A stretch of DNA of 64,000 nt from Panopea generosa (Eukaryota > Mollusca > Bivalvia > Adapedonta > Hiatellidae): assembly GCA_029582155.1 (NCBI GenBank), contig CM055900.1, positions 76,862,731 to 76,926,730 of the forward strand, given 5' to 3'. This document shows positions 9,117 through 49,325 of the stretch, in pieces (positions within the stretch are counted from its first letter, which is position 1; every line of letters begins with the position of its first letter). The position numbers and the translations under genes were made by a program. The notes below the pieces were generated by a model. The model had not been told where the DNA came from. It saw only the letters and a program-made list of their open reading frames with translations, and did not search any database.

Positions 9117-9211
<95 letters not shown>

Positions 9212-21412: not shown

Positions 21413-23322
21413 TACTGCTGTGGTGACTGTGTCTGTGGTGACTGTGTCTGTCTGTGGTGACTGTGTCTGTGGTGACTGTGACTGTGGTGACTGTGTCTGT
21501 GGTGACTGTGACTATGGTGACTGTGTCTGTGGTGACTGTGTCTGTCTTTGGTGACTGTGTCTGTCTTTGGTGACTGTGTCTGTGGTGACTGTGTCTGTCT
21601 TTGGTGACTGTGTCTGTGGTGACTGTGTCTGTCTTTGGTAAATGTGTCTGTGGTGACTGTGTGTGTGGTGTGTGTGGGGACTATGTCTGTGGCGTCTTTG
21701 GTGACTGTGACTGTATCTGTCTGTGGTGACTGTGACAGTATCTGTCTGTGGTGTCTGTGGTGACTTCGTCTGTGGTGACTTCGTCTGTGGTGACTGTGTC
21801 TGTGGTGACTGTGTCTGTGGTGTCTTAGGTGCCTGTGTTTGTTATGACTGTGTCTGTGGTGTCTGTGGTGACTGTGTCTGTGGTGTCTGTAGTGACTGTG
21901 AATGAATCTGTCTGTGGTGTCTGTGGTGACATCGTCTGTGGTGACTGTATCTGTTGTGACTGTGTCTGTGGTGTCTTTAGTGACTGTGAATGAATCTGTA
22001 TGTGGTGACTTCGTTTGTGGTGACTGTGTCTTTGGTGACTGTGTCTGTGGTGTCTGTAGTGACTGTGAATGAATCTGTCTGTGTCGACTGTGACTGTGAC
22101 TGTGTCTGTGGTAACTTTGTCTGTGGTGACAGTGTCTGTGGTGTCTGTGGTGACTGTGACTGTATCTGTCTGTGGTATATGTGGTGACTTCGTCTGTGGT
22201 GATTGTGTATTTGGTGACTGTGACTGTGTCTGTATGTGGTGACTGTGTATGTGGTGACTGTGACTGTGACTGTCTTTATTGACTGTGTCTGTAGTGACTG
22301 TGACTGTATCTGCCTGTGGTGTCTGTGGTGACTTCGTCTGTGGTGACTGTGTCTTTGGTGACTGTGTCTGTGGTGACTGTGACTGTGTCTGTCTGTGGTA
22401 ACTGTGTCTGTGGTGACTGTGACTGTGTCTGTGGTAACTTTGTCTGTGGTGACAGTGACTGTGGTGTCTGTGGTGACTTTGACTGTATCTGTCTGTGGTG
22501 TCTGTGGTGACTTCGTCTGTGGTGACTGTGTATTTGGTGACTGTGTATGTGGTGGATGTGAATGCGTCTGTCTAAGTTGACTGTGTCTGTGTTGACTGTG
22601 TCTGTGGTGACTGTGTCTGTGGTGACTTTGTCTGTGGTGACAGTGTCAATGGTGGCTGTGTATGTGGTTACTATGTCTGTCTGTGGTGACTGTGTCTCTC
22701 TTTGGTAACTGTGTTTGTGGTGACAGTTCCTGTCGGGACTGTGTCTGTGGTGTATGTGGTGACTGTGTCTCTGGTGTATGTGGTGACTGTGTCTATGGTG
22801 TCAGTGGTGACTGTGTCTGTCTGTGGTGACTGTGTATGATGTGACTGTGTCTGTTGTGTCCGTGATGACTGTCTGTGGTGACTGTGTCTGTCTGTGGTGA
22901 CTGTGTCTGTGGTGACTGTGTCTGTGGTGACTGTGTATGTTGTGACTGTGTCTGTTTGTGGTGACTGTGACTGTGGTGACTTCGTCTGTGGTGACTGTGT
23001 CTTTGGTAACTGTGTATGTGGTGACTGTGTCTGTGTCTGTCTGTGGTGACTGTGTCTTTGGTGACTATGTATGTGGTGACTGTGACTGTGCCTGTCTGTG
23101 GTGACTGTGTCTGTGTTGACTGTGTCTGTCTGTGGTGACTGTGTCTGTGGTGACTGTGTATGTGGTGACTGTGACTGTGTCTGTCTTTAGCCGGTGACTG
23201 TGTCTTTGGTGACTGTGTATGTAGTGACTGTGTCTGTGGTGACTGTGTCTGTCTGTGGTGACTGTGTCTGTTGTGACTGTGTCTAAGGTGACTTTGTATG
23301 TGGTGACTGTGTATGTGTCTTT
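21413..23322. repeat. 1.9-kb degenerate minisatellite, GGTGACTGTGTCTGT-type
   Basis: Roughly 15-bp units 'ggtgactgtgtctgt' are interspersed with 12-, 18- and 21-bp variants (gtgactgtgact, gtgtctgtctgtg, gtgacttcgtctgt). The plus strand is strongly G+T rich. Units are mostly multiples of 3 bp, so long Val-Thr-Val or Cys-Gly-Asp reading frames appear; these are artefacts. Confidence 0.95.
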
Positions 23323-24494: not shown

Positions 24495-25318
24495 TGTTTA
24501 CCTTACTTAATAAATATATTGTACACAACAGAGTGGTGTTACATAAATGGTTATATCATCCTACGTAACAATAGAGTGGTGATACATAAATTGTTATCAC
24601 ATCCTACATAATAATAAAGTGGTGATACATAAATGGTTATATCATCCTACATAATAATAAAGTGGTGATACATTAATGGTTATATCATCCTACACAACAA
24701 TGGAGTGGTGATACAGTAATGGTTATATCATCCTACACAACAATAGAGTGGTGATACAGTAATGGTTATATCATCCTACACAACAATGGAGTGGTGATAC
24801 AGTAATGGTTATATCATCCTACACAACAATAGAGTGGTGATACAGTAATGGTTATATCATCCTACACAACAATGGAGTGGTGATACATTAATGGTTATAT
24901 CATCCTACACAACAATGGAGTGGTGATACAGTAATGGTTATATCATCCTACACAACAATAGAGTGGTGATACAGTAATGGTTATATCATCCTACACAACA
25001 ATGGAGTGGTGATACATTAATGGTTATATCATCCTACACAACAATGGAGTGGTGATACAGTAATGGTTATGTTATCCTACACAACAATAGAGTGGTGATA
25101 CATTAATGGTTGTATCATCCTACACAACAATAGAGTGGTGATACATTAATGGTTATATCATCCTACACAACAATGGAGTGGTGATACATGAATGGTTATA
25201 TCATCCTACACAACAATGGAGTGGTGATACATTAATGGTTATATCATCCTACACAACAATGGAGTGGTGATACATTAATGGTTATGTTATCATACACAAC
25301 AATAGACTGGTGATACAA
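24495..25318. repeat. Minisatellite, 43-bp unit, about 19 copies
   Basis: Each unit contains 'cctacacaacaatagagtgg' and 'tgatacagtaatggttatat'. Variation is limited to a few alternating sites (aatagagt/aatggagt; acagtaatgg/acattaatgg). The combinations recur in blocks, indicating multi-unit duplication. The first four units are more diverged. Confidence 0.95.
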
Positions 25319-25840: not shown

Positions 25841-25905
25841 CCTCACCTCATCTTTTCAATTTTGAGGATACATACATTGCCATCTTACTGTCAAACTTAT
25901 CTTGG

Positions 25906-26715
25906 ACATTGTATATATCATACATTGTATATATCAGATATTGTATATATCATACATTGTATATATCAGATATTGTATATATCATACATTGTATATATAT
26001 CAGACATTGTATATATCAGATATTGTATATATCATACATTGTATATATCAGATATTGTATATATCAGTTATTGTATATATCAGACATTGTATATATCAGT
26101 TATTGTATATATCAGATATTGTATATATCAGATATTGTATATATCAGACATTGTATATATCAGACATTGTATATATATCAGACATTGTATATATCAGATA
26201 TTGTATATATCAGACATTGTATATATCAGTTATTGTATATATCAGACATTGTATATATATCAGACATTGTATATATCAGATATTGTATATATCAGACATT
26301 GTATATATCAGACATTGTATATATTAGACATTGTATATATCAGATTATGTATATATTAGATATTGTATATATCAGACATTGTATATATCAGATATTGTAT
26401 ATATTAGACATTGTATATATCAGACATTGTATATATCAGACATTGTATATATCAGATATTGTATATATATATAATATATTGTATATATATATCAGATATT
26501 GTATATATCAGATATTTTATATATTGTATATATCAGACATTGTATATATCGGATATTGTATATATATCAGACATTATATATATCAGACATTGTATATATC
26601 AGACATTGTATATATCAGATATTGTATATATCAGATATTGTATATATCAGACATTGTATATATCAGACATTGTATATATCAGATATTGTATATATCAGAT
26701 ATTGTATATATCAGC
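25906..26715. repeat. Minisatellite, 16-bp unit 'gtatatatcagacatt', about 50 copies
   Basis: The unit alternates among 'cagacatt', 'cagatatt', 'catacatt' and 'cagttatt' endings, with occasional +2 units (gtatatatat). It is open in all plus frames as Tyr/Ile/Cys repeats (period 16), giving false ORFs up to 277 residues. Confidence 0.97.
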
Positions 26716-27932: not shown

Positions 27933-28198
27933 TCATGAATTAAATAACGATATTGCCTTGGTACTTGAGTTTTGATCAATCTCACACTTGTATTTGATAT
28001 AGCCGCTGACGATTGAGAAGTTCCGCGATTGGCTGGTTAAATGTTTGGTGTGGTATAATACGGTTGTCTCCCCGTGTTTCACAAACCGGAAGATCATGTA
28101 TTGTTCCTCTATTGAAATACTGTTTGATTCTGAATATATCACTTTCTGTCTCTTTAAAGTTACATCAATTGTTTTTCCATTTCTGCCCAGGTCATAAC
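27933..28198 (-). CDS. Exon 6 (terminal) of the CpeT/VirK-like gene
   Basis: Acceptor 'ttctaatttcag' precedes the exon on the minus strand. The two leading bases GT complete a Ser codon with the last base of exon 5. It encodes YDLGRNGKTIDVTLKRQ through EEQYMIFRFVKHGETT to IKYKCEIDQNS, the second half of VirK-like repeat 2, and ends in TGA. Confidence 0.75.
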
Positions 28199-31100
28199 CT
28201 GAAATTAGAAAATAAGCAAACAATATAATAATAATAATTAATGCAGTCCGTGGACAAAGAAATAGTAGATTTGAAGAAAGTCAAATAAGTACAGTATAAT
28301 AAAAAGAATCTGTAAATAACAGTATGTATTTATACAAGGACTTTATAGAATATCTATATAACCCCTTGATACATATGAGGGATCCGCCTTGTCTGAGGGG
28401 GTGGGGGGGAGGGGGGGGGGTTAAGAGGGTGGGCTAAAATTTAGAGCACTGCATTGCGCATGTCCCTTTTATATACTGATTTGTAAAACGGACACGTGCA
28501 GTGAAGACAGACATCAGAGACGGGCAGAAACACCTGTTATACAACACGTGCTTTCGATACGGTAACAAAGTTGATACTAAGTTACTAATAGCAACTTCTT
28601 TAAATGACTTAGAGCGTGATTTGTCTAAGTTGTAGTAACTTGTTTCACAATCGAAGTAAAATAAATAAGTTTCAGATAACTAATGATTCTTTAAATTTCC
28701 CATTTTTTTAGAGAGAAATTGTGGCCAGATCATTTTGTGTAAAATTGTATATGATTTATAATGGATTATATGCTTGCACGACAACACAATATCTTCAAAC
28801 TTTTGTATAAAAATGACGCTAAATATTCAAACACATTTCTGAATATCTCTAAATGTTTACTTACACATTAAATGACAACACATACTTGAAGTCATAGCAA
28901 ATCTTGACTAATTGGTAAATGATAACAAAATAATAATGTAAATAAAGTCAAAGCTTTTAAAATACAGTGACGATGACGAAAATCTTAACTGAATTCACGA
29001 ATGTGATAAGATCGACTATTTTAGAGTTGAACGGATTATTTATTGTCGCAAAGTTTGTATTTTTCTTAGGCGGTCGTGTCAATAGACTCTTGAATCAGTT
29101 TGAAAAAAGGTCAACACTAACTAAGATTTACACACACACAAATATACCTAACAATAAATCTTTCATCTCCGCAATTGATTTTAACATGCAAACTCGTCGT
29201 TCATTCGCCCGCTAAAGAGCTGGGTCCCTTCCTGACCCGATCTGATCTTTAGTACAAATATTTACAGACATAATACTACGATTGCTTGTGATGGGCAGAT
29301 ACGAAGCGTTAAAGTTGGTTCGATTTGTCAATGTCAGTTTAATACAAAACGGGAAATCTAATTCAAAATCTGATATATTTTTGCACCACGACCGACCCAC
29401 TACAATTTATGACAATTCAAATTAATGTAAGTCCCTATTGTTAACAGTTTAAAAATGCCATCATACACAATGTTATTGTCAAACTTGTGCGCTCGTGACA
29501 CCTGCAAAACATTTCATGAGATAAAAACTCCCGATGATATAAGTGTATCATACAGACTGGTATAAAAATAAATATGTAAAAATGAAGGCGTTTCTCGTGT
29601 AATCTCGTTGGAACCGTTCGAGTTGGAGATTAATGGCGCTGGTTTACGGTTACATAAACAATATATTTATGATGGATATCAAACAAGATTTATGTTATAT
29701 TTGTTTATAATACACCCAGTGCTTAAACTCGTAACAGTTTTTTTTCTCCAAAAGAACAAGGTCACCATGTCCCATTTTGATACTAATGTGTTGATATTTA
29801 TGTTTCATTGGTGACCTTGACCCTTCCCAAAGCAAGTACAGTGGAGCACTAGTCTAGTGGTACTGCGTCAGACTAAATATCTGTCAGCAAATAGCTTTAC
29901 TGCTAGTGTTTTATATGTGTACATCCGACACAAAATAAAGATTCTTGTATCTTGTAAGATCGGTGAATCTAACCCTAATCTCCCCGATACCGTGTGGTTT
30001 GTCATTGAGCAAGGAAACTTAATATATATGGGCGCTGCATTATATCAGTTGGTAAGACGATGAAAACGTGGTTTGTATAAACTGAACGTACGTGTGTGTA
30101 ATGCATGTTAAAAATTTAAGTTAATACACCAGATAGGGAAAATATTTACAGGGAATGGGAAGAGAACAGAGTGCAAAGTAGGAGTGCGGGGACTATAGTT
30201 TCTACTATTACGTATAACATCCCGGGAATATAGCTTCTACTATTACGTATAACATCCCGGGAATATAGCTTCTACTATTAAGTATAACATCCCGGGAATA
30301 TAGCTTCTACTATTACGTATAAACGTGACATCGCGGGAATATAGCTTCTACTATAACGTTAAACATCCCGGGAATATAGCTTCTACTATTATGTATAACA
30401 TCCCGGGAATATAGCTTCTACTATAACGTATAACATCCCGGGAATATAGTTTCTACTTTAACGTATAAACGTGACATCGCGGGAATATAGCTTCTACTAT
30501 AACGTATAAACGTGACATCGCGGGAATATACTTCTACTATAACGTTTAACATCCCGGGAATATGGCTCCTACTATAACGTATAAACGTATGACATCGCGG
30601 GAATATAGTTTCTACTATAACGTATAACATCACGGGAATATAGCTTAACGTATAACATCACGGGAATATAGCTTCTACTATAACGTTTAACATCCCGGGA
30701 ATATAGTTTCTACTATAACGTATGACATCGCGGAATATAGCTTCTACTAAAACGTATAACATCGCGGGAATATAGCTTCTACTATAACATATAACATTGC
30801 GAGAATATAGCTTCTACAATAACGTATAACATCACGGGAATATAGCTTCTACTATAACGTATAACATTGCGAGAATATAGCTTCTTATATAACGTATAAC
30901 ATTCCGTCAGGTGTTGGCTCAACTTTTGTATTATGGAGAACATTTGTCTAACAAATGAGCATGTTTTGAGGACGGAGAACGTTGTAAAATGTTAATGCTG
31001 TAATAAAAAATGTAAAATTGAATTTGTCAGTGCTACGTAACTGGTAACCGGTGATAGCTCTCAATGTGCAGTCGTTTAGATAACCAAACAACGGTATAAA

Positions 31101-34100
31101 GTGTCGTCAATTCAAAATACACCTAGGCTATCTATATGACAAATGTGCCTAGCTTTACATGTAAAAACTATACGGCCTGTATTTTGCTTAAATGCATTCG
31201 CTTTCTGCCCCCGCGTTAACTACCCTTACTGTCTGTCCGTCTGTCTGTCTATCTGTTTTTTTTCTCTTTCTCTGTCTGTCTCCCTCCTTCACTCCCTCTC
31301 TCTCTCTCTCCCTCTTTCTATCTCCATATATCTCTGTATAACTAAGAGTCCCTTTAATAACCTGCCTTGTTGTAGATCTGTGTGAGAGTTTTTACATTAA
31401 CTAATTACTGACAATAATTCATTCTTCAGTCTATAACGTAATTAAACATGGGTTTTGTTTTATACTGCCCAAGTTAATTTGTTTAACAATTACTCTTGTG
31501 TTGTTAGATTTGTTAATTAATAAAACACGAGAAGATGTGATATATCATGCAGTTAGCGGTGAACAAGTAACAATAACTTCCGAAGAGAAGTACAAGGTTA
31601 TTTCTAATTTGAATCACTCTCTCACTCAATCACTCATTCGCTCATTGAATCATTCATCCATCGATTATTCAATCACTTACTAACTCAGTCAGTCAATAAC
31701 ACAGAAAGAGAAATGATAAGAAGAGGAAGAGAGCCTGAAAGAAAAGTATATAAACATGGAAATAGCGGGAAATAGAGAGAAAAGTATAAGAAGACAGAAG
31801 AAGGAAAGAGAGAAAGAAAGAACAAAAGAAAGAAGAAACAAGACCTTTGAGGTACAGGTGTGAGTCTTGCTCGCAACACGTCGTCATGTTATGTTGATCA
31901 TTTGTAGCAAGTATTTATAAAATCCATCCATGCATGACAAAGTTACAGGCCGGACACGAAATCTCACACAGATTCAAAGTGTATTCAAACAAACTCAAAT
32001 TGTGACCATGACCTTTGAGGTGCGGGTGTGGGTCTTACTCGCGACACGTCGTCATGTTATGTTGATCATTTGTACCAAGTATAAAGAAAGAAAAAAAGAG
32101 TTTTAGAAAGAAAGAAAACAAGACAGAACAAAAGAAAGAAAGAAGGAAAGACAGAAAGAGGCGCTGTCCAAAATGTAAGCCAATTTTACAATTGAGCGTA
32201 CCACGTCGTCGTGTAGAAAACGTAAAATACGATTAAACTTGTACCAGGCCTACAAATCTAGAGTTCTAGTGTCAGACTCGTTAACTATAATGGCACACGT
32301 TTGCCAACTTATTCGCTAATCCTGGATTTATAAAAAACATGTCATATATAGCAAACGCCTCATATTGGAACGTCACGAATATTGGCAACAGCGATATTTA
32401 AATATAAATATGTAGTAATACAGAACGAACGGATGCCCATTTTGTCATTACTGCTATAATGAAACCAGAACGCTGTCTGTAAAATTGTCACTATATAATG
32501 ACTTAAAATGTTTCTATCATATTGTACTAGTATCTGGAAATATCGTAATTATGGTTTGATCGTATCTAAGATATGCTGTTCATTTTGCCATGGCAACCAA
32601 TCAATGTCAACGTTCTTTTCAGAGTAATTTTCTACTGAACTTCCGCATCATTTTAACTGCTACGGCCGCTCATGTTAGATAATGTCTAAACATTTTAGTA
32701 TTTTAAATATTAAGTCTATTAAAATGATTCACGTGATGTAAATAACTTGTACACATAACATTCATGTATGCACTTAATCGAGTTAAATGACATTCGTATT
32801 TTTCTCATTGCACATAATTTGTATTATATCGATTCGAACCTACAACCACAAGGGTAAGAGACCACCGTTACAGTTTCGCATTGTACAGCCACGGTGGACG
32901 CAAAGAACGTTTTACTTTGGAAATTTAACCAAGTCACGCGCACAAAAGTGGCCACAGAACCGGATATCTCCTAGTTTATCCCAGAACCGGATATCTCCTA
33001 GTCTATCCCAGAACCAGATATCTTCTAGTCTATCCCAGAACCGAATATCTCCTAGTCTATCCCAGAACCTGATATCTCCTAGTCTATCCCAGAACCGGAC
33101 ATCTCCTAGTCTATCCCAGAACCAGATATCTCCTAGTCTATCCCAGAACCGGATATCTCCTAGTCTATCCCAGAACCTGATATCTCCTAGTCTATCCCAG
33201 AACCTGATATCTCCTAGTCTATCCCAGAACCGGATATCTCCTAGTCTATCCCAGAACCTGATATCTCCTAGTCTATCCCAGAACCGGACATCTCCTAGTC
33301 TATCCCAGAACCGGACATCTCCTAGTCTATCCCAGAACCGGATATCTCCTAGTCTATCCCAGAACCGGATATCTCCTAGTCTATCCCAGAACCTGATATC
33401 TCCTAGTCTATCCCAGAACCGGATATCTCCTAGTCTATCCCAGAACCGGATATCTCCTAGTCTATCCCAGAACCGGACATCTCCTAGTCTATCCCAGAAC
33501 CGGACATCTCCTAGTCTATCCCAGAACCGGATATCTCCTAGTCTATCCCAGAACCGGATATCTCCTAGTCTATCCCAGAACCTGATATCTCCTAGTCTAT
33601 CCCAGAACCGGACATCTCCTAGTCTATCCCAGAACCGGACATCTCCTAGTCTATCCCAGAACCGGACATCTCCTAGTCTATCCCAGAACCGGACATCTCC
33701 TAGTCTATCCCAGAACCGGACATCTCCTAGTCTATCCCAGAACCGGACATCTCCTAGTCTATCCCAGAACCGGATATCTCCTAGTCTATCCCAGAACCGG
33801 ATATCTCCTAGTCTATCCCAGAACCGGATATCTCCTAGTCTATCCCAGAACCGGATATCTCCTAGTCTATCTCAGAACCTGATATCTCCTAGTCTATCCC
33901 AGAACCTGATATCTCCTAGTCTATCCCAGAACCGGACATCTCCTAGTCTATCCCAGAACCGGACATCTCCTAGTCTATCCCAGAACCGGATATCTCCTAG
34001 TCTATCCCAGAACCGGATATCTCCTAGTCTATCCCAGAACCTGATATCTCCTAGTCTATCCCAGAACCGGACATCTCCTAGTCTATCCCAGAACCGGATA

Positions 34101-37100
34101 TCTCCTAGTCTATCCCAGAACCGGATATCTCCTAGTCTATCCCAGAACCGGATATCTCCTAGTCTATCCCAGAACCGGATATCTACCGAATCAGGTCTGT
34201 TTAATCACGATGAAAAAGCGGCATCAGATACCCAATTTTATGCAGCCATTCAATGCACCGGAACGTTATTATGACAGCACTTAAAAACATGTTATGTCTT
34301 TTCTCTCTTTTTTTCTCACCTAATTTATTCATTTTTCTTTATTTATCTCTTCATTTATATTGTTGGTTTACACCTTATTGATTGTTAAAATTGCCATCTT
34401 GATTCTAATGTTATTTGTATATTGAAAATGGAGGGCCGTAACTAATGTTGCTAGAACTTGTGGCCCAACCCGTTTGCTGTGTAAAATATGTTTAAACCAT
34501 GAAAAAGCAGGGAATTCTATGCCTGTCCCATAATTCATAGCAAGTTAATGCTTACTAAACTGTGACATCATTCAAACTTTCAGTTGAAACAACTGACCAA
34601 TCAGCATGCTCAAATGTGGCTTTCCCAACATTGCTAATTAACGGACCCAATCTGGAGAGCGGGGTCTGTACTATAGACTAGGTACCAAAATATTTGGAGT
34701 ACTCACTTCTAAATTCACCTCCGAGTATCACGTGGTCCGATTTTCCACCGCTGCATTTTTCGAGGTCAGTAGTCATTCGGATCATCTTTCCTTTTTGTAA
34801 TGAAGACCGAAGATGTCCAAACTTAGACACGGCCGCAACATCGCGATAAGGGTCCAGGTAAAATTTGACATCGCCCTTTCTGAAAAATCGAAAGAAATAT
34901 ACTTTTAAATTTATGTGTATTGTGTAACTGTTTATGTAATAATAACAACCAACATGATGCATTTTAAGGAATAAGCTTTTGTATAAAACCGTTTTATTTT
35001 CAAAGGCGAACCTTCACGTACCAACTGGCAGCTCTGGTGTTACTAAAGGAAATCTCAAATATCGTTGTCATCATCATTTATTACCTATCTAGTTGATAAT
35101 ATGACATCATGTGACGTTTAGATTTTCTTTTTATTCTCATTACTTGGTAATTATACTGAACGAAAAAGCTAACCCGCCAACTGACATTTTGGAATTATCT
35201 TTACCTGATATTTTAAGTATTTTCTTAAAAAAACAACAACATCGGAGCTATATTCTTGAAATTTGGACTTAATTAAGAAAGAACATTAAGGAAAACAATG
35301 ACCAAATCTGCATGATTTATTTTGACAGTAATTGGAATAATTTTATAATTATTGGAATGGGTAGACAAATCAGTTTTCACACGACAGTCAAAAGTGGCGG
35401 GTTAGCTGTTCCGTACTGTATATAACCGCTAGCTGCATACTTACACGTTGTCTTGGTCAAACAGGGTACAAACGGTGAAAGCATGACGGTCTATTTCCCC
35501 TTCTTCGTTCAGGTAAACAGTTGCTATGTGAACAGAACCGTTTCTATGGACTGTGATTTCCTTCACAACATCGTGAAAACCTAGAAATAACAATGGGATT
35601 AGTGACTACAATCATTGATATAGATACAACTACGCGGGAGTTCGTTTAGTTTGTAATATTTTAAACTCAATTGAAGACAGCTCAAAGATTATATGATCTG
35701 CTTTCGGGTCCGCTTCCTGGGAAGAACAAGTTCTGGGTGTTGTTTTTGAGGGTCATCGGGTCCGGCGAGCTGGGGCTCTAACCCATAATATCTTGCGAGA
35801 GCAACCAACATTTTATCCACCACACGACTGCCCATCATTCTATTTGGATAAAGATAATAGGATCTGTTTTCGAATCGAAAAAAAAAGTATAGTTGAAATT
35901 TTATGTATTTTAATAACATTATATTTAAATGGCCAATCTGTTAGAAAATATACATTCCTTTGTAAAATGTTAAATTTGATGAATGGGTGGGTTAAGGGGT
36001 CATTCAGGCTGTTATTGCACGAACTGTAAAAAGTAGACTCACCTGTCTTTGTGTGCTGTAATCGTTTGAATGAGAAAGTCAGATGTGTGTATGGCTGCTT
36101 AATAGAGGAGTCCTTTCCTATCTCGAACACTTCCACGTAGTCACCGAACATTGTTCTTTCGCGCACGGGTACTCTGTCGTGATGACACCTTTTCGTTCTT
36201 GCGGTGAAATACAGTTTGTGTCCATTTATCAATGCGTCAATAACACCGCTGTACGTTTGCACATTCCATGTAGTTTTCTGTTTATCACGTGGATTCTTTT
36301 TCTTATTCGAAGACGTGTGTGCACCGCTGTGCCTCGTTTTGGAATTAATTTCTGGCGTGTCAGTGCGCTTGAATCCAGCTCTGAGAATTGCAGTGTTTAG
36401 AATTTTCTCCTCATTGGTGGGATATTTATTGTGGTTAGAATGGTCCGACTTCAAGCCTACGGGTACAGTGTTTGATGCATATTGATGTTTTCTATTAGGT
36501 CTTCCTCTCCTCAAGATTTCAGAAAGACCTTTGCTGCGTTTTACTTCCGGTATAGCGTTTCCGTTGTTTTGTTTGTTACGTTTAACCCGCCCATCTTGTT
36601 GAGGCAGCAATGGCATTTTTCCTGCTTTTTTGACACTTCCACTGTGAGCTGCAGGCGACGGTTCTTCGTACCTGCAGGAAAGAGATGATTAATTAATTAA
36701 TAATAATAATAATAATAATAAAGCTTTTTATAAATAAGAGAACTCATTTGAATAAATTCAATCTTCCATGAAGTGCTTCTTTAAATCTCCCTTCTGTCCT
36801 CACTTAACTCTCGTCGTTGATGTCGTAGGTTTGAGCCTAGCTCGGTACAAAAACTTTATGTGAGAACGTTTGCCAGTTACTTGCGAAGGATTGTGATTCT
36901 GCTTAGATTTAATCTAAAACAGGACATATCACATATAACCTGCAATGTTCTGAAAATGGCGTTAACACGAAACAACATTATAACCAGACACCGACATAAA
37001 TACTTCGAAAACAATTGATGGAAACAAATAATGCAAAATAAATAACTTACGGTGTATCTGTGTCCACTATGGTTTCTACTTTCGTCATAAAGATGGGTCC

Positions 37101-40100
37101 CTCTAGTTCAATAAGCTTGCTCCCGTCATCAACGTTGTACCATCCTTCGTCTATCTGAAGACTTGCCGACGTCAGGGTGGTCATAACTGATATCCGAACC
37201 TGGAACGAACAGACGACACGTTGAAAGGTGTGTAAAACTTATAAATACGATAATTGTACGTTACCTTATAATACCAATCGTACATACTCGGCCAATTCCG
37301 CCATCCTTCGGTATTATTAAAATTTAATTTGGATAATCGACGAGGTGGTCCGAATGCTTATAATACGTCATATCCAACCAGTTACGTAATTAGAGGTTTA
37401 ACTATAAGACATTTTGTTTTGTTTTGAATAAATCAAGAACAAGGTTTTCACGAACAACAAATAAGCAAAACAACAACAGCGTAAACATCCACAGTAGCAG
37501 AAGTAGCAGTGTTAAAAACATGTAGCAGCAATAAAAGAAGATCATTAAAAACAGCAAAAATAGCAATGAAATAATATCAGCAACAACAACACCGGTAGCA
37601 GCAGGAACACCATCAACAACAACATTAACTATTTAAGCATGATAATGATTTGTTTTTTTTTAACATGTTTTAGTATTCTCTTTAAAAACAATGAGATGCC
37701 ATTAATTAACAATTGCTTATTATATTAACGAGCCAAATTACTGCACAGATCAGAGAGCGGTGAAGCTACCGACTTTTAAACAATTGCCAATTACTGACTT
37801 AGACCTGTCTATATTGGCTGCACGTGACGGATATCCCGGCTCCGCTGCCAACATTACGTACACCTGGCTCTACAAAGATGTTACACGAGATAATGTCTCA
37901 TCGCCTTGAAACAATAGTCAGATAATTGAACGTGGATAATCTCAGGTCACCATTACTGCCACACCTGCCAGACGTCTCAGTAGCGAACTACCTTAATCGT
38001 GTTAATCATGAAATACACGTCAGTCGTAATTGGATTTAGATTAAGAAACGTAGGGGTGGAAAGGGGGGAGGTTGTTGCGTCGGGGTGCTGGATATTGGGA
38101 TCAAAATGTTGGTCTTAAATGAGTGGATGCTTAAGACGGGCTTGTCTGCATATATGTATTAAACGGGTGTTGATCTGGGAGTTTACGTAAATGTTTTTGC
38201 GGTGGGACTCAACACCTGTGAAACGCACGAGGAGTTTGGGGAATCGTGCAAACCCCTGTGTTACTCTCTGAGGTGTATTACGAGATTGGGTAAAGCGATT
38301 GGGTACAGAGTATAGTACGTAATTATTCCTGAAGTAAGAAATAAACGTATTAAACTGAATTTAATGAAAAAATCTCTGATAACATCTAGTTGGCAGAGTA
38401 AGTCATTATTAATTGTAGAAAAAAGAGAACAAAAACCATTTATGTTTGGCGATTGGTACTGTATTTTTAATTGGTAATTTGTTTACTAGCAGTGCTGGGG
38501 GTGAACGAGGACTGTAGTTAGATGCTGTGAAGGGCCGTACCCACGATGACAACTTTTTTTAAATAAGAAAAGATATATTAAATTTTTAAAATGTTACTAA
38601 TTAATTAAAACTTGTTTATTTTACTTCGATTGTGAAACAAGTTATTACAACTTAGACAAATCATCCTCGAAATCCTTCTGGGTAGAACCCGTACTAAGAA
38701 CATGTGGATAAAGTGTCTTGCCCGAGGGCACAACACTTAGCCGTGACGCAGGATCAAACCCACGACCCTTCGATCCTGGATCCGAAGCTCTACACATAGA
38801 CCACACACTCAGCAATTCATAACTAAATATAATGACAGAGATGGGAATTTAACCATAATTTAACTTAAACAAACCATCTAAAAACAATCAAAAATAATAT
38901 AACAATAAAATGCTTCAAAACAACCTCAACATGGGTCAACATAACTCACCCACATACAAATTGATTACACTTAAAACTCAATTCACCCAACTGGACAAAC
39001 AGGCAGGCAAGATGGAACCCAGTAGTAGTCAGGTAGGCAGAGAGACAGACAGGCAGGCAGGATGGAACCCAGGAGCAGTCAGGCAGGCAGAGAGACAGAC
39101 AGGCAAGCAGACATGGCAGCCCCAGTGAATATCGTGCCAAAGCATGTGTGCCTTAGTTCAATACTACAATTAACTTACTCTGTATCCAAACAGTTTAAGT
39201 CGGCCTACTATCATTTAAATAGACATCTCCTTAGTTCCTAATGTTGGAAAATCTGGTTGAATTGTAGACAGAAGAAAATCAGGTCAAGTGTCTAGTATGG
39301 TTTAGAAAAACACAGAAACCAGTATTGTACCCACAAAACCCCAGCAAACCCATCGCTGTAGATGTCAAAAATCATAAACTTCATTTCACGACATTTCAAT
39401 GAACCACATGTTTAACTGCTTTCAATTTTGTCGATTTGTTCTCGTTATGTCAGCGCACGATATCGCAGTGTTGTCATTGAGGTGGCTTTTGTGATAGACG
39501 CCCGAGTCAATTAGTTTGTAAGTTTATCAACATTTTGTTCCTTTGAAACTACATTTGTCTCTTTTCGAACTTTACTTTCAAAGGGATTAACTATATCTGA
39601 TTACAGTTCGAAAACATCGCATTGCGTTTTATGAATGGATTAAGGACCGTATTCAGTTTCGTTTTTTGCTCATCCGTTATACGACACAATGCACATATAG
39701 GTTAAATGTGTCTCATATCTTTTCAATCGTGCACATTTTATGATTTTATGTCATTTTAAAGGTCGTGTGAATCACTCTAATTTTCCATTCAATAGGTATA
39801 CCTATCCCGGATCCTATATAACACGCTACGCAGCTTGATTTACGTGCACTTTAAGACGAAATTTTAAACAAACGTTTGATTCGTTTAGTACCCATATTTC
39901 ATGCTATGATGTAAATATATATACACACACGCGTATTAAGGACACTCGAAAGCTAATAAATGTCTTAAATACAGTTACACTGTTTCGTGTCTTGGCGCCT
40001 GTGTACGTCAGAAGTGGCAGGGCATATAATAAAAAAATACGTTTTTAAGGGCCAGCGTTTTACTGAAACCATTAAAAGCACATACAAAAAAAACAGCCAG

Positions 40101-43100
40101 TGTCAATTGTATCATGTTTTACAACAAATAGACTTATGAACTACAGGTATGTTACATTACGGGTTATCATGTACAGTACAGTGCGTACTTCTCATAGGCG
40201 TAGAAGCCGGATGACCAATGCACCCCTCCCCCCCCCCTCCCCACACCCCAATTATTCAGGTTGTGGGGGCCAGCATGTACTTTTGCCGGCCCTAGAAGAA
40301 CATATCCGCATACTCTCTTTCCTCAGGTCACCCTCCCCCAATAACTGAAACGCCGCTACGCCCATGCGCTGTTGGTGCTACCATATTGAAACGTCACGAA
40401 CACGTGACAAAAATCATTGCGCCATTGGGCGGTCGCCATTGCTTTTCAAAATAGTACTTCACTCTAACAAGGAACGCATCTTTTTTTCATTTATAAAACA
40501 TGTTTTAAAATTATTTTTTTTAAGAACTGAAACATATTTATTTATCTAAAGTTCAATATTCAACCTCATTGTTTTTGTAAAGTGAAATCTGCAAAAGGGA
40601 AATACTCCAAAATGTCGTTTTATTTGAGCATACAAACAGTAATTAATCTGGTAGCCTGTGCGCCATTGCTACATCCAATATACCCATGTTGAACCATTAT
40701 ATAGAGTATTTTGCTCAAACTCAAACGTTCATCTTTATTGACTCTACTTGCCACTTTCTAACCATTTGGTGCTTTATTAATCGCATACAAGTTGTTTCTC
40801 ATTGTAAATATGTTACATAAACACACAAAAACATTTTCATAGCCTATATATATATATATATACTCTCCTCCCATCCTAAATCATCGCCACCCCACCAGCA
40901 TACGCCTCTCGTTGAGCCTTTATTTAATGAATTGAGAATGACGAATGGGCATAAAAGAAATTGATTATACTGTATTCCTTCGTAGCTCTCTCTCTCTCTC
41001 TCACTCTCCGAAAGCTTGCGACCTTAAAATGAAAAAAGTAAATTGACTAACGAAAGTCGTAAAATTCTCTGCAAACGTATTTAACAGTTTGACTTATGGC
41101 ACTAATAACAATCCACGTAAATATCATCCGGGCCAAATGTCCCGTGTAATGACGCCATTTACTGTAATTACGGGCAATAAGTATTTTGTATATCTACATT
41201 AGAACTAAGTCAGATCTACATCCATAAAATTCCCAAAATTACGTTATAAATGGGGCATGCTCTGAATATCAACTGTCATATCTTATGAAGCAAGTTTCCA
41301 ATATACATGCTTGCAACTATTACCGCCATTTTATAATTTAACGATATGTAAAACCTCAATCGGAGCACTTAAAATTATTGTAGATATACGACCTGTTCTG
41401 GGTGCTTGTTTATTCTCATACTTAGACATAATTTATATGTCTGAAATCAAAGAATTATTGTCTGAGAGGATTAAGAATAGCTTGTGAAGTGCGCGTATGC
41501 TGACGTTAATTTGCAATTGTCTATGCTGTATATTAGTCAAAGTACTGACTGCACTGTTGTGCGGGATTAACAATATTGCCGTTGGCGGCAGCACAAGTTT
41601 CTGAACGTATAGTTTACATATGCAATTAAGGGCATAAATAACCATGCTATGGTAATACTAGTATGCGTTATTTGTTCTAAGTTTAAAGTACGCCTACATA
41701 CGTATTGAATGGTAAAATATACACTATATTTCATTTAACCAGGCTCGGTTAGCTCAATCGGTAGCTCGTCTGACTATCAATCCAGAGAATCCAGTAAAGA
41801 GAAAGGTTTCGTAATTCAACATATTAAAATTATAGTGTACTAACTTAAACTTATTATCTTTGTTTGTTTGTTTATGTTTTTCTTTGTTTATATTGTTTTT
41901 TGCTTGACATTTAATACAATTTCAATTTCATCCCTCTAAAAAATGGATAGAGACTTCAGTGGTCTTCAAAAAACAAAATTGGTCCTTCAGATCAACATTA
42001 AAGTCTGCATACGTCGTCATCGAAACTAATTAGCCGCGGCAAATATATACACAACTATCAAAATGTTTACCACAATCGTACAAAAAACAACACAAACGAG
42101 CTTAGTTTTCTGTGAATTGTCGTAATTTAAAAACTCCAGACCTCATAGTATATCAAGGGTGAGAAAGGTGTTGTTTATGTGGTTCGTTGCTTATTGATCA
42201 ATTAGTTGTTTCAACTGTAAACAGCATTAAATGTCGTTTGAGGAAGGAGTGTGGACCTGTGATGTGTGCATATACGTCTAGACGACAGGCAATATTAAAA
42301 ATACGGCCCGCATCCGTGTAACACCTGGCAACTGTATTCACACGGATACTACTTAATAATAAACAGTTATTATTAATAATGCGCATCTGTGTTACATGTT
42401 CATGTATACTCTCGTATTATAACCAAAATTGGTACATGAATGTGTTCACATACGCACACATTTACACTAGCAAGTGCACACGCCCCCGTACATATACACG
42501 TACATACGCACCGACACCAGTAGAGCACGCCGAACAGTTAGTGGTAGAGCATCGGACCTAAGCTCATGAGTTCGTGAGTTCGATCCTCCGCCACAGCTAT
42601 GTGTGTTGTCCAATACACTTTATTCGAATATGCATAAATAGTTCAGCTCCTACACAGGAAAGCGTGATATTTTCGACGTTGTAAGAAAGTAAGAGTGTCA
42701 CAATCGATGTAAAATAAATAAATTTAAAAAATACACCAACAACAAAACAGAACTTTTCCCTTTACTTTATACTTAGTTATTTTATCTCCGCTGCGAAGAA
42801 AGTTCAGTGTCTATATGAACTGCTCTCAAGTCCGCTTCCCGGGTAGAACCAGTTCTGAGTTGTTGTTGTTTCAGAAGCATCGGCTCGAGCTGGGGATCGA
42901 ACCTGCAGTTTCTGGCATGAGCGGCCAACACTGTATTTACTACACCAACCGCCCTGCTAACGGCCCTGTAACTTTACAGCGGCTACTTTTGTAATTATCT
43001 TAAAATGTCTGTCAGATGCAGGTGAGTGCATTGTTAATGGCATTCGTGTATATTTGATATTTCGTTATACCACGAGTCAGAGAAAAAAACACGCGCACCC

Positions 43101-44023
43101 CACTAGCTAAAAACATAAAGTTCCCTCGTAAAACGTGAATATCGGTTACTTCACAAGTAGACCAAACAACCAATCAATAAAACATATCATTTTGATATTT
43201 AATGTAAACGGAACATTTTATGATATATCATTTCGAAACGTTTATTTCTTTTTAAGTAGGAAACCTCACTGTGCAACAATTTATTAGATCACGTTGAATT
43301 TTAGACCAGTCACTTTAAGGGAAAAATACACTTGTCATGTTCAGGAAATTAGAAAACACATAAAACAAGAAGACTTTAAAAAGAATCTGATCGTTCAATT
43401 TAATAATCAATCAATAAACAATTAGTATGTAATCGATATTACAAAAAATATATCGCCATCGTTGTTTGTAAAGTTAATACACACGGTGAGCCAGCGTTTA
43501 TTTATGAATACGTCTAAGTGCTTACCAAATGTACCTCACTGTTCTAATATATTTTTGACTTCAGATGAGATGAGAGTAGGTAACAATGAGGCAATAAATC
43601 TTATCTTGCTGTTGGTCTGTTTATTTAGTATTTAATGTAAGATATTCACCTATATTGTCTGAAGAAACAAGCAATATTGGAGCTAGAGATAGATTGCTTT
43701 TGACCAATTTTTATTTTTGCTGCGATGTCTCGAATTAATACTATGGTTTAGTGTTTTGGCTATTGACTCGTCAGCAATCTTAAGATTGGCTGATTCTGCA
43801 TGCTAGAGGTGCATAAAAATGCATGCTCATTGCATGACATTGTTAAATGTATGCGGGATTGAATCCAAGTTTCTAAGAACATTCATGTGTGCTCAGCAGT
43901 TATATTGTGATTTCCAAGGTTATACAATGCTCTAACTGAGTTTATAAATGAAGCATTCTGTGTGGTGTTGTTTGGTACTTTTGGCTGTTCTGGGTTTTGA
44001 CAATGTGCTTTGATGGTGATCTT

Positions 44024-44096
<73 letters not shown>

Positions 44097-46375
44097 GTAT
44101 TTTGTTTAAAGTTTATTTAACTCCATGTTGTATATGTGACACAGGACCCAGTACCATTCAGTTCAAGTTCTGATACTTTTTTATCGTTTACTGTTAAAGT
44201 GAAACAGCTACAGAATATATAAATTCACTCTTGATGGCACGGTGAAAGCAGTATAATTATATGGCCATGCCGAACTGGTGTAGTCTTGAGAAACACGCCT
44301 ATCCGATTCAAAGCTACCGTGCCTGATATGAAAACCTTTGCCCTTAGGTTAAAGACTTTCACCCCTAGGGTTTTTAAGCTTCAAAACCCAACTCGAGAGT
44401 TCATACTCAATCAAAAAACGAATGGAAATAAGTGTAAAAATAAGTTGTTGCGCTTTAATTTGTATTTTATATGAATCCTTAAACTTGGCTTGGGTTTGAG
44501 AACGCATTTGAGTTGAGCATGAAATAGTTTTATTGCCTCGACACCTGGGTCATAGATCGGCGTGTATTGAGCGTATACATGAATGGAAGGGCGAGGGGAA
44601 ATAGTACGGGCGGAGGGACACTGCTCCGGAATGAAACACATGTGGATTGTATTGGATTTGAACTATATTCTTTATATAAGTACGTTGAGCTTTCTCAAAT
44701 GTTCTCGAGTCTGTTTCTTGGTTTGAACCAATATTGGGGGTTATTGATGATCATCCGGTCGATTCTGAGATCGAACCTGAAACCTATAATGTGAGCGACT
44801 AACACCCATCGACTATAGCACCGCCCCCAAATTTGATTTGACTGCGTGTGTGTTGATCAATTACGAGTTAAGATACAGTCTGTGTTTTAATTTTATTCCC
44901 GCTCAATTTACCATTTCCGGCCTGGCGAATACGATTGCAAAAATAATAAAGCATATCTTACTACTATATAAGGTATATACGACCTGTTGACCCCTGTAAT
45001 CAATGTATATATCTATATATCCCTTCATTAAAACCTTCAAGTATAAAGTTGATTATAAATTGTTAGCACGTGGCGAGATACTTCATTGAGGGCATGTTGC
45101 ACGGATATGTTATATTTTTTGGGCGGATGTATTTGCTAAAACTTGCTAGTTTCTTGGTAGCTAATCCCCGCGTAAGACCACACTGTCAATGGCTGATTAC
45201 AGGGCGCCCTCACCCCGCGACCTGAATATGCAGATTTAAGATTTAAACGCAGTATTGCTCACATAGATCTATCTTTTTTACATAATAATAAAGAATACAC
45301 CATGAAAACACATACGTCGTATCACTTAGTGTTACCCCGAGCTCATCAACGATCACTTTTAATTATCACGTTAAAAATCAAAAGTTGAATAAAAAAAAGA
45401 ACAATCTATTGAATTGGAATTAATTTCAACTTTAATTCGCCCAACGGGTATAAAAACATTAATACTAAATGCTTTCTTAGCAAATAAAGTTAAATAATGT
45501 AATGTTTATGCTATAAAAAACTATTATAAGCGCGTTCTATATCCAGATATGGAGATTATGTGTTTTGTATTGAAATTAAACTGCCTGTTCAATTAAAAAC
45601 GAATGTAAAAGCTGATAGACCCGTTTTGCTGTGTTTGGGATTGCTTAAGTTGAATAAGTCACTCTTGATAGCATGAATGCAAACGCCTTACTGCGGCCAC
45701 AATTATCCCGGTACATGTGTGTATGTGTGAAGACACAGATAGGGGGGAAGGTTACTAAGCTGTCCGATGTGGGTGAGTATTTTTTCAATGGGAGTTAAGC
45801 ATTTTCCAACACATTTCAGGCTATACATGGCATATCTAAGTTTCTTGGTGAAGGGAGCCCTCAGAATGTACATGAGGAGAATCACTGGTCCTCCGCAAGT
45901 AACTGGCAAATTCTTATATACTGTTTTAAGGAATTCGAACCTATGACTTCAACGGTGAGATGTTAGTGGTCTTGAGAAGGTGCCTTAGACCACTCGGACA
46001 CGAAGGAGCCTCCGAGGTTGATATTTGACATTGTGAGAAATGTCGTCCTTAATTTAACCTTTTATTTGCGATAATGTGATCAAACAAAAACAGTAGAATA
46101 TCGAAATTAAATAAGATATCTTTTTTTTTCAAAAGTAAGAAATCATAAAGGCAACACGAAATGTTTTGTATCTGCAAAAATACAATGATTATTACTATAG
46201 CAGGTTTTACTGCCGACCCGTCAAAGTAACACCGACGTGTGACAATTTTATAGCGATGGTTAGTGCCCACGCTGTACTGCTCATAAATAACATGCAAATG
46301 ATATTGCACGAGATGTATACATTGTTGCTGCAGAGGGGGGAGGAGGGGGGCGGGGGGCGTAGAAAGGCAAAGCGC

Positions 46376-46412
<37 letters not shown>

Positions 46413-47163
46413 GGGGGGGGGGAGATAGGAGAGTGATAGAGAGAATTTGAGACGAAGGAAAGGTTGTGTATTGCGAAATTTAGATATAGTCTTTATTCGG
46501 TTTCCAACCGGCTCGCACAATGCCGCGTTGCCGAGTTTGACTGATAGTCTATGTGATTAATAATGACGTACTAACCTGTCTGCCGTTAACCTCTGCTACA
46601 CAGCGTCGCGACGTCGTCCCAACAAACGTATCCCCAAGTCGTCGCCAGTGCATGTCACAGTCGCTACGCGTTGAGACGTCATTTCGACTCAAATACTTTG
46701 CAGCACTTGGGTTTTTGTTAAGTTTCTCCCCTAGCGATTTGTCCAACAGGTTATATACCCGTAATCGCAATAATTTGGAGGATTCGTCCACCGCGAAGCT
46801 ATACAACCATTGCATATGAGGTTTGTGTTTGCCGTAAAGGGTTTGTTGTACGTAAACGTTAAAACACTTTGGTAACGACGTGTCGTCGACATTTAGACAC
46901 TCGGGTAAGAAAGTAACGTTAACTGGTCGATAAATAGCGTTCATGGACATAGCCGTTAACGCCTCGGCGGGGGATTCAACCCGGGTTCCAAGTCGGTGGC
47001 TAAAACTGTGTCTGAGGTTCTTGGAAGTTCTTGGATTGTTGCTGTAAACCCCAGGGAGAATCTGAGACAGTTTATGTAAGTCCTCCTTTAGCTCGATCCC
47101 GAAACCCACACCGCAAAATAATAATATTTGCAGACATCTCACGCACAACATATTACCCGTCAT
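27933..47163 (-). CDS. Secreted CpeT/CpcT-like + tandem VirK-like protein (six exons, 646 aa)
   Basis: Exons in coding order: 46576-47163, 37051-37199, 36043-36671, 35445-35580, 34707-34879, 27933-28198. All introns have GT..AG borders and phases 0,2,1,2,1 close into one 1,941-nt frame. Residues 1-22 form a signal peptide (LCVRCLQILLFCGVGFG). Residues ~24-237 match the CpeT/CpcT family: LSQILPGVYSN, YVQQTLYG, LLRLRVYNLL, SDCDMHWRRLGDTFVG, RRCVAEVNGRQ, IDEGWYNVDDG, GPIFMTKV. Residues 246-382 form a basic, probably disordered linker with a furin-type RVKR at 274-277. Residues ~383-502 and ~515-640 are two diverged copies of one domain, each starting L...L..G......T....C. They resemble VirK-family proteins from memory. 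CpeT proteins in cyanobacteria attach bilins to phycobiliproteins; no such substrate exists in animals, so the role is unknown. The exon chain is my assembly and lacks transcript proof. Confidence 0.78.
28395..28425. repeat. G-rich low-complexity tract
   Basis: 'gggggtggggggga'-type sequence inside intron 5. Confidence 0.85.
28600..28678 (+). mobile_element. SINE family C 3' fragment
   Basis: 'gatttgtctaagttgtagta' plus 'cttgtttcacaatcgaagta' and 'aaataaataagttt' match the 3' end of the family-C copy at 62775-62990. Confidence 0.7.
28679..30184. other. Intron 5 sequence without recognised features
   Basis: AT-rich. Short ORFs lack motifs. A tRNA-like patch near 29850-29870 ('gcactagtctagtggtactg') may be a SINE scrap. 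Confidence 0.35.
30185..30905. repeat. Minisatellite, ~35-bp unit, about 20 copies
   Basis: Units contain 'cgggaatatagcttctacta' followed by 'taacgtataacatcc'. Indel variants insert 'aacgtg' (41-bp units). It lies in intron 5 of the minus-strand gene. Confidence 0.95.
31210..31335. repeat. Pyrimidine simple repeats (TCTG)n and (CT)n
   Basis: 'tgtctgtccgtctgtctgtc' is followed by CT-rich sequence. Confidence 0.85.
31615..31695. repeat. Simple repeat, (TCAA/CACT)-type
   Basis: Degenerate 'ctcactcaatcactcattcg' words. Confidence 0.7.
31700..32165. repeat. Purine-rich (GAAA)n tract with a duplicated ~70-bp dispersed-repeat segment
   Basis: GAAAGA-rich stretches at 31700-31840 and 32085-32165 flank two related segments, 31842-31914 and 32011-32081. 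Both carry 'gacctttgaggt' and 'acacgtcgtcatgttatgtt'. Between them is 'gcatgacaaagttacaggcc' and 'ggacacgaaat', which I associate with a widespread mollusc interspersed repeat (from memory). Confidence 0.75.
32955..34185. repeat. Minisatellite, 27-bp unit, about 45 copies
   Basis: The unit contains 'cggatatctcctagtctatc' and 'ccagaac'. Differences fall almost only at two positions: cgg/ctg/cag, and ata/aca. 27 is a multiple of 3, so the plus strand stays open as a nine-residue ISPSLSQNR repeat within a 495-codon ORF at 32787-34274. Both variable sites change the amino acid, so there is no sign of purifying selection. It lies in intron 5, antisense to the gene. Confidence 0.95.
34300..34520 (+). 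mobile_element. Probable LINE 3'-end fragment
   Basis: 'gtaactaatgttgctagaac' and 'ttgtggcccaaccc' parallel 51300-51350 ('tctaatgttgacagaacttg', 'ttgccgacccca'), preceded in both by pyrimidine-rich sequence. Confidence 0.5.
34707..34879 (-). CDS. Exon 5 of the CpeT/VirK-like gene
   Basis: Acceptor 'cgatttttcag', donor 'gtgagt'. It encodes KGDVKFYLDPYRDVAAV and the start of VirK-like repeat 2, LRSSLQKGKMIRMTTDLEKC. It enters in phase 2 and leaves in phase 1. Confidence 0.8.
35445..35580 (-). CDS. Exon 4 of the CpeT/VirK-like gene
   Basis: Acceptor 'tttctag', donor 'gtaagt'. It encodes FHDVVKEITVHRNGSVHIAT followed by VYLNEEGEIDRHAFTVCTLF, the end of VirK-like repeat 1. Confidence 0.8.
35690..35865 (-). 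mobile_element. SINE family D copy in intron 3
   Basis: Shares 'ggtccgcttcctgggaagaa' and 'gttctgggtgttgtt' with 42755-42965 ('gtccgcttcccgggtagaac', 'gttctgagttgttgtt'). It is a degenerate tRNA-headed element in minus orientation and explains the ORFs in this stretch. Confidence 0.65.
36043..36671 (-). CDS. Exon 3 of the CpeT/VirK-like gene
   Basis: Acceptor 'tttcctgcag', donor 'gtgagt'. The 629-nt exon encodes the whole basic linker and most of VirK-like repeat 1 (YSGVIDALINGHKLYFTART, then KRCHH, then LTFSFKRLQHTKTG). The RVKR furin-type site is near its start. Confidence 0.85.
36697..36721. repeat. (AAT)n in intron 2
   Basis: About eight AAT triplets immediately upstream of exon 3. Confidence 0.9.
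36795..36925 (+). mobile_element. SINE family E fragment
   Basis: 'gtaggtttgagcctagctcg' and 'aaaaactttatgtgagaacg' correspond to 52870-52930 ('cgtgggttgaagtctatctc', 'aaaaactttatatgagaatg'). Confidence 0.6.
37051..37199 (-). CDS. Exon 2 of the CpeT/VirK-like gene
   Basis: Acceptor 'gttcgttccag', donor 'gtaagt'. It begins in phase 0 directly after the exon-1 codons for GRQ and encodes VRISVMTTLTSASLQIDEGW then YNVDDG..GPIFMTKV, the C-terminal strands of the CpeT fold. This exon ties the 46.6-kb exon to the 36-kb cluster. Confidence 0.82.
37200..38605. other. Intron 1, proximal part; nothing recognised
   Basis: CAA/CAG-rich low-complexity sequence at about 37470-37640. Otherwise unremarkable. 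Confidence 0.4.
38610..38815 (-). mobile_element. SINE family C, full-length copy in intron 1
   Basis: The minus-strand 3' part matches 62930-62985 ('gtgaaacaagttattacaac' in plus orientation). The head at 38750-38810 has box-B-like 'aggatcaaacccacgaccct' on the plus strand. Confidence 0.7.
38997..39115. repeat. Two tandem copies of a ~57-bp CAGG/CAGA-rich unit
   Basis: Each copy contains 'gatggaacccag' and 'gcagagagacagacaggca'. Confidence 0.9.
39116..41738. other. Intron 1 interior; no gene recognised
   Basis: AT-rich with a C-rich tract near 40222-40250 and a short TA tract near 40850. No coding exon with a CpeT- or VirK-like signal is seen here, consistent with the direct exon 1-exon 2 join. 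Confidence 0.4.
41742..41800 (+). mobile_element. SINE family A head fragment
   Basis: 'ggctcggttagctcaatcgg' with 'tctgactatcaatcc' resembles the tRNA head of family A. The box-B half and body are lost. Confidence 0.6.
42515..42725 (+). mobile_element. SINE family C copy in intron 1
   Basis: tRNA-like head with 'gtggtagagcatcggaccta' and 'gtgagttcgatcctcc', then 'cacaatcgatgtaaaataaa' at the 3' end. Confidence 0.75.
42755..42965 (-). mobile_element. SINE family D copy in intron 1
   Basis: Minus-orientation element. The plus strand carries 'gctggggatcgaacctgcag' (box B complement) and 'gtccgcttcccgggtagaac'. Confidence 0.7.
42966..44025. other. Intron 1; nothing recognised
   Basis: AT-rich; short ORFs only. 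Confidence 0.35.
44026..44097. repeat. (AAT)n microsatellite, about 24 units
   Basis: Pure ATA/AAT trinucleotide run. Confidence 0.97.
44690..44830 (-). mobile_element. SINE family D fragment in intron 1
   Basis: 'gattctgagatcgaacctga' and 'gtgagcgactaacacc' are related to the head of 42755-42965. Confidence 0.55.
45920..46018 (-). mobile_element. tRNA-Leu-like SINE head fragment
   Basis: The minus strand reads 'cgtgtccgagtggtctaagg' then 'aggttcgaattcc'. The first resembles the D-arm of Leu/Ser-type tRNAs. The arm lengths do not give a full cloverleaf, so it is treated as a SINE remnant. Confidence 0.55.
46332..46440. repeat. G-rich and (GA)n low-complexity tract in intron 1
   Basis: 'ggaggggggcggggggc' is followed by about 15 GA units and a G run. 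Confidence 0.95.
46576..47163 (-). CDS. Exon 1 of the CpeT/VirK-like gene (signal peptide + most of the CpeT-like domain)
   Basis: ATG at 47163, then a hydrophobic signal peptide, then the CpeT-like core through CVAEVNGRQ. Donor 'cag|gttagt' at 46576/46575. Read-through adds only nine codons before a stop, which supports splicing at this donor. Conserved CpeT-type cysteines are SDCDM and RRCVA. Confidence 0.85.
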
Positions 47164-48375: not shown

Positions 48376-49325
48376 GTGATTTTACTACTATATCGTACCA
48401 GGGTACAACGGCATGGTATCATACCAGGGTACCAGTGTAGTCAAACAACGGTATGGTATCATACCAGTGTACCAGTGTTATCAAAAAAACGGCATGATAT
48501 CATATCGACGTATACCAGTGCAGTCAATCAACGGCATGATATCATACAACTGTACCAGTACAGCAAACAATGACATGATATCATACCTGGGTACCAGTGC
48601 AGTAAAAAAAAACGGCATGATATCAAATCAGGTTACCAGTGCTGTCAAACAACGGCATGATATCATACCAATGTACTAGTGCTGTCAAATAACGGCATGG
48701 TCACATAGCAGGGTACCAGTGCAGTCAAACAACGGCATTATATCATACCAGCGTGTACCAGTGCAGTCCAACAACGACATGATATCATACAAGGGTACCA
48801 GTGCAGTCAAACAACGGCGTGATAGCATACCAGGGTACCAGCGCAGTCAAACAACGGCATGATATCATATATGGGTACCAGTGCAGTCAAACAACGGCAT
48901 AATATCATACCAGGGTACCAGTTCTGTCAAACACCGGCATGATATCATACCAGCGTGTACCAGTGCAGTCAAACAACGAAGTGATAGCATACCCGGGTAC
49001 CAGCGCAGTCAAACAACGGCATGATATCATACAAGGGTACCAGTGCAGTCAAACAACGGCGTGATAGCATACCAGGGTACCAGCGCAGTCAAACAACGGC
49101 ATGATATCATATATGGGTACCAGTGCAGTCAAACAACGGCATAATATCATACCAGGGTACCAGTTCTGTCAAACACCGGCATGATATCATAACCAGCGTG
49201 TACCAGTGCAGTCAAACAACGGCGTGATATCATACCAGCATGTTCCAGCGCCGTCCAACAACGGCATGATATCATACCAGAGTGTACCTGTGCAGTCCAA
49301 CAGCGGCATGTTATCATACAAACGT
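48376..49325. repeat. Minisatellite, ~40-bp unit, about 23 copies, with ~242-bp higher-order duplication
   Basis: Units contain 'gtaccagtgcagtcaaacaa' and 'cggcatgatatcataccagg'. The block from about 48788 to 48950 recurs nearly unchanged from about 49030 to 49192, including the private variants 'cggcgtgatagcat', 'catatatggg' and 'gttctgtcaaacacc'. This shows recent multi-unit duplication. Confidence 0.95.

Follow-up and report, generated by a model that had tools for sequence, protein, structure and literature searches.

The stretch of Panopea generosa DNA analyzed here, a window of 64,000 nucleotides from contig C7 of a 1.47-Gb genome in 39 contigs, contains a heterodont-clam gene for a three-domain protein, in which a CpeT barrel is followed by a basic linker and a pair of bacterial-type VirK domains. 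Its six minus-strand exons, spread over 19 kb and separated by GT-AG introns, encode a product of 646 residues closed by a TGA stop (coding start at 47163, stop end at 27933), with entry phases of 0, 2, 1, 2, and 1 for exons 2 to 6 (Table 1). This six-exon model had been put forward in an earlier sequence-only reading, and we found all exon ends, the start, the stop, the phases, and the length of the product to be as claimed there. Gene structure, domain architecture, the fold of a close relative, and conservation among clams are established; these are known folds in a new combination, with a job to be assigned and no surprise of mechanism yet.

Table 1. Features of the window, listing the parts of the CpeT-VirK-VirK gene in coding order and then the tandem arrays
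Feature	Position	Strand	Content
Exon 1, 588 nt, residues 1-196	46576..47163	-	Start codon, N-terminal hydrophobic segment, and most of the CpeT domain; Pfam CpeT 39.9 bits alone
Probable signal peptide, residues 1-22	47098..47163	-	Predicted from hydrophobicity
Insertion and the duplicated-looking next segment	46843..46908	-	Insertion is the first 33 nt (46876-46908), without counterpart in 10/10 relatives
Exon 2, 149 nt, residues 197-246	37051..37199	-	Final CpeT barrel strands, QIDEGWYNVDDG..GP.F
Exon 3, 629 nt, residues 246-456	36043..36671	-	Low-confidence basic linker (about 244-378) and start of VirK domain 1
VirK domain 1, first part, from residue 379	36043..36274	-	
Exon 4, 136 nt, to residue 501	35445..35580	-	Remainder of VirK domain 1, with Cys493
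Exon 5, 173 nt, residues 501-559	34707..34879	-	Start of VirK domain 2, with Cys543
Exon 6, 266 nt, to residue 646 and TGA stop	27933..28198	-	Remainder of VirK domain 2, with Cys630
GACT microsatellite	9173-9839		Large tandem array
Tandem array	21418-23317		Unit about 15 bp
Tandem array	24525-25317		Unit about 43 bp
Tandem array	25905-26714		Unit about 16 bp
Tandem array	48405-49319		Unit about 40 bp
Tandem array	61636-62424		Unit about 39 bp

A search of 5.77 billion proteins, of a kind that reaches relatives sharing short words and similar in length, returned 10 relatives at E values up to 0.01 among 6184 candidates. They cover 86 to 100% of the query at 42 to 55% identity, and all of them match both Pfam families, CpeT (PF06206) and VirK (PF06903). 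Four belong to the named genera Ruditapes, Mactra, Mya, and Dreissena, all Imparidentia, while the remaining six lie on contigs of 2.5 to 3.5 kb with the source label "lgn," which we take to mean assembled public reads, and given contigs of this size they are probably spliced transcripts. The four named proteins, namely, the uncharacterized LOC132736128 (Ruditapes philippinarum) and LOC128244656 (Mya arenaria) as well as LOC127844898 (Dreissena polymorpha) and ACF0H5_007002 (Mactra antiquata), share their architecture and precomputed Pfam domains with the window protein at 45 to 54% identity, and the names shown for them carry no function. The differences are an 11-residue insertion, Gln106, and Met117 on the side of the window protein and, for the Dreissena isoform, a missing C-terminal end. 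The same architecture in 10/10 relatives, including at least four named clam genera, bears out the proposal that this is an animal gene. A profile search of the window's genome matched CpeT a single time; the corresponding VirK search recovered neither this gene nor anything in 14 controls and therefore carries no weight. Viral contigs and genome contigs yielded no relatives when searched with the clam CpeT profile, and a tblastn search of plasmids with VirK copy 1 gave no match at an E value of 10. Among the matches listed from the open-licence literature, there was no paper on a clam CpeT-VirK protein. A slug study measures genes named CPCT1 and CPCT2, apparently without defining them (PMC13336835).

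The relatives also allowed the exon junctions to be examined. Those at residues 196, 501, and 559 are gap-free over 17 residues in 10/10 relatives and that at residue 246 is gap-free in 8/10; at residue 456 this holds for only 1/10, because the window protein is one residue shorter there than most relatives. By eye, the end of exon 1 is mirrored in the relatives, as 9 of 10 short matches (P0011 to P0019) diverge directly after the same Val, with P0020 departing from the family before that point, and at the end of exon 3 all four VirK matches (P0021 to P0024) continue into "GK," the reading expected of a GTAAG donor. Splicing raises the CpeT score from 39.9 bits for exon 1 only to 46.5. The placement of the C-terminal CpeT segment on the distant exon 2 is upheld by its junction, gap-free in all relatives, and by the fold match described below. 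Within intron 5 lies a 27-bp minisatellite (window 32955-34184; 45.6 copies, 96% matches); the long open frames on both of its strands are taken as a by-product of the repeat.

Membership in the two families was assessed by profile and by fold. The whole protein scores 46.5 bits against the CpeT cut-off of 21 (E = 5e-12) and 27.3 bits against the VirK cut-off of 23.7, and both families are matched by 11/11 clam proteins (E up to 0.01, query included). Taken alone, the second VirK copy (residues 502 to 646) matches PF06903 at an E value of 1.1e-4 with 22.6 bits, just below the cut-off, and in three relatives it scores 16.1, 24.9, and 16.9 bits, so that 1/4 lies above it when the window is counted. 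Fold models of the Ruditapes relative, rather than of the window protein, were compared with solved structures; the match over model residues 22 to 226 predicts a calyx-shaped barrel as in CpcT, and a VirK fold was recovered for both modeled copies. These results support the CpeT-like domain and the two VirK-like domains of the sequence-only reading. Its third claim, two self-similar C-terminal repeats, stands as a duplication, for which fold and VirK profile speak, but not as significant sequence self-similarity: BLASTP of the 646-residue protein against itself returned the full-length match only, with no internal repeat, and the hhalign score of copy 1 against copy 2 (18.1) was beaten by 3 of 40 column shuffles (21.8, 21.1, and 18.6). 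Sequence-based searches of solved structures gave nothing at E values up to 10 with the single protein; the CpeT profile returned four sequences and no CpcT (a tRNA synthetase family twice at 0.031 and two phage proteins above 0.6), and the VirK profile returned three, among which 5xta at 0.15 was on a par with two unrelated proteins (0.18 and 0.27). An NCBIfam search matched 0 families.

The known role of CpeT proteins is that of phycobiliprotein lyases, which attach the light-harvesting pigments of cyanobacteria. For the residues of the barrel, the clam proteins were set beside 22 cyanobacterial and 2 phage sequences, a narrow comparison set, 19 of which came from a scan with F-Y-x-E-Q and W-G motifs in its patterns, so that the conservation of these two motifs in those 19 is partly built in. 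The fair set for both motifs comprises three plasmid and two phage sequences found by plain similarity; there, the Y-x-E-Q, Trp-Gly, and P-Y-R-Q motifs and both cysteines are invariant (5/5), which agrees in direction with the larger set. Cys169 and Cys188 are kept in all 24 cyanobacterial and phage sequences and in all 11 clam proteins. The Glu of Y-x-E-Q, present in 24/24 and in 10/10 other clams, is Gln106 in the window protein, and the Arg of P-Y-R-Q, present in 24/24 and in 9/10 other clams, is Met117; as both are lost in this one sequence, they may pair. The C-terminal Trp-Gly motif is found in 24/24 of the comparison set and in 0/11 clam proteins. Glu, Arg, and Trp-Gly, the sequence features by which we judged a T-type bilin lyase, are lost in the window protein. 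Just before its Y-x-E-Q strand, the window barrel carries the 11-residue insertion, whose resemblance to the segment that follows (LPECLNV/LPKCFNV) suggests an old and incomplete tandem duplication.

T-type lyases are lipocalin-like barrels (PMC10254012), and homologues have been described in phage S-PM2 as well as in a cryptophyte, red algae, and plants (PMC2408579). With CpcT and CpeT (4o4s and 4o4o; phage CpeT 5hi8), the clam protein has PF06206, the calyx barrel fold, the cysteine pair and, in most clam relatives, Y-x-E-Q in common, at about 10 to 15% identity in fold alignments. It differs from them as a probably extracellular animal protein with extra domains and without Trp-Gly. CRL (CRUMPLED LEAF) of Arabidopsis (6lix), also among the closest known counterparts, differs in being a plant protein that resides in the plastid and is not known to have VirK domains. 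From the solved VirK example, lpg1832 (5xta), it differs in that the VirK domain is present twice in a row, is joined to a CpeT barrel, and occurs in an animal; the VirK structure paper is cited in PMC7325957.

The protein is probably secreted. Its most hydrophobic 11-residue stretch begins at residue 13 and has a Kyte-Doolittle mean of 2.52, as compared with 1.81 to 2.88 for the best stretches of the 10 relatives, and a hydrophobic N terminus is present in 11/11 clam proteins, consistent with the secretion predicted earlier. The candidate cysteines (Cys169 and Cys188 in CpeT, Cys493 in VirK 1, and Cys543 and Cys630 in VirK 2) suggest that there is probably one disulfide per domain, three in all. 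The linker has a Q-x-D core in all 11 proteins and an A-G-F motif in 9 of them (not P0008 or P0009), possible short binding motifs in an otherwise variable region whose charge ranges from -2 to +17, with +17 in the window.

In a domain tree of 35 sequences, limited to clams, cyanobacteria, and phages, the 11 clam CpeT domains are set apart from the rest by a branch (100/100) that is 5.21 changes per site long, a length that argues against recent transfer from the sampled cyanobacteria or phages. The placement of the window protein among the clams is not resolved in this tree; in the whole-protein tree, midpoint rooted for drawing only, it groups with P0001 to P0007 and P0010, apart from P0008 and P0009. 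A scan with the cyanobacterial and phage CpeT profile found 194 relatives, and the best 80 of the 194 are all labelled cyanobacterial save one Gracilibacteria (L042). On three cyanobacterial plasmids, a CpcT/CpeT gene follows a gene annotated as a phycobiliprotein lyase (L006 32-1279; L007 1-1288; L008 129-1279); bilin lyase genes can therefore be plasmid-borne.

The reading that we favor, with a probability of about one half, is that of a non-lyase, probably secreted CpeT-VirK-VirK protein whose linker is flexible, whose calyx holds a small lipophilic ligand, and whose VirK pair serves in docking. In this scenario, the barrel would no longer attach bilins to proteins and would bind its ligand non-covalently in extracellular fluid, matrix, or gut lumen, the VirK pair would dock to another protein or surface, and each of the three domains would be held by its own disulfide. 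A job other than that of a lyase had been proposed from the sequence and is backed by the absence of Trp-Gly throughout the clams. Residues that do not vary among the bacterial and phage proteins compared have been lost, which speaks against lyase chemistry. The retention of Glu and Arg in most other clams suggests, in turn, a kept pocket or barrel function there.

Several points weigh against this reading. The ligand, expression, and localization are putative, secretion and disulfides are predictions from the sequence, and docking by the VirK pair is a proposal for which the analysis found no support. Gln106 and Met117 speak against a bilin role in this species and could mean that pocket function has been lost in it. 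The Ruditapes models have low mean confidence (48.8 and 53.9), with the barrel mostly at 56 to 81 and one loop below 40, and the bacterial comparison set is, as noted above, narrow and partly motif selected (19/24).

As to the ligand, a tetrapyrrole (a dietary phycobilin, biliverdin, a haem breakdown product, or a shell pigment) would be the most natural guess, because the nearest solved relative, CpcT, was crystallized with phycocyanobilin. A bolder version, which we consider rather unlikely, is that an ancient CpeT barrel was recruited in heterodont clams as a secreted tetrapyrrole binder, anchored by VirK, to catch bilins or haem breakdown products outside cells, whether from algal food, from haemolymph, or for shell pigment, and that the pocket has been altered or lost in the window species. 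A conserved, probably extracellular animal CpeT fused to two VirK domains suggests a life of this fold outside photosynthesis, and the clam protein offers a tractable case for asking what the CpeT fold does. Were the ligand a tetrapyrrole, the protein would be relevant to the handling of algal pigments by filter feeders and to shell color; if not, it would still provide a route to VirK function in animals.

Alternatively, the barrel may be a structural scaffold only, in a secreted matrix or defense protein that uses its CpeT and VirK folds for protein or surface contacts and holds no small ligand. This is a possibility to be taken seriously, if on the unlikely side: Gln106 and Met117 replace charged residues kept by the compared cyanobacteria and phages and by most clams, Trp-Gly is lost in every clam protein, and the window has a long basic linker, but the Y-x-E-Q and R-Q core persists in most other clams (Glu 10/10 and Arg 9/10) and the linker charge is not a constant feature of the family.

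That the protein is still a bilin lyase, attaching linear tetrapyrroles to some animal protein, appears very improbable. The fold match to CpcT with phycocyanobilin, the cysteine pair in all clam proteins, and Y-x-E in 10/10 relatives would fit such a role; against it stand the lost residues, namely, Trp-Gly in all clams and both Glu and Arg in the window, the very long clam branch, and the fact that animals are not known to have phycobiliproteins.

We rejected as extremely improbable that the gene was acquired recently by horizontal transfer, or is a contaminant, with a cyanobacterium or phage as its source, for even though the nearest characterized relatives of the domain are cyanobacterial, the gene has five introns, sits in a genome assembled into 39 contigs, is common to at least four named clam genera, and belongs to a single clam group on the 5.21-change branch. 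Equally remote, and likewise rejected, is a gene-model artifact in which exons of neighboring genes were joined by eye, as the 19-kb spread and junctions predicted from DNA alone might suggest, since both Pfam families occur in one protein in 10/10 relatives, six of them on contigs of 2.5 to 3.5 kb.

Elsewhere in the window, a single open frame on the plus strand (1917-4124) encodes a TRIM-like protein that combines a RING finger and B-boxes with a C-terminal region resembling SMP-30/NHL (Pfam; NHL itself below cut-off). On the minus strand, positions 17864-17925 give a weak tRNA match (32.2 bits against an Rfam cut-off of 29), which we would guess is perhaps a tRNA-derived repeat.
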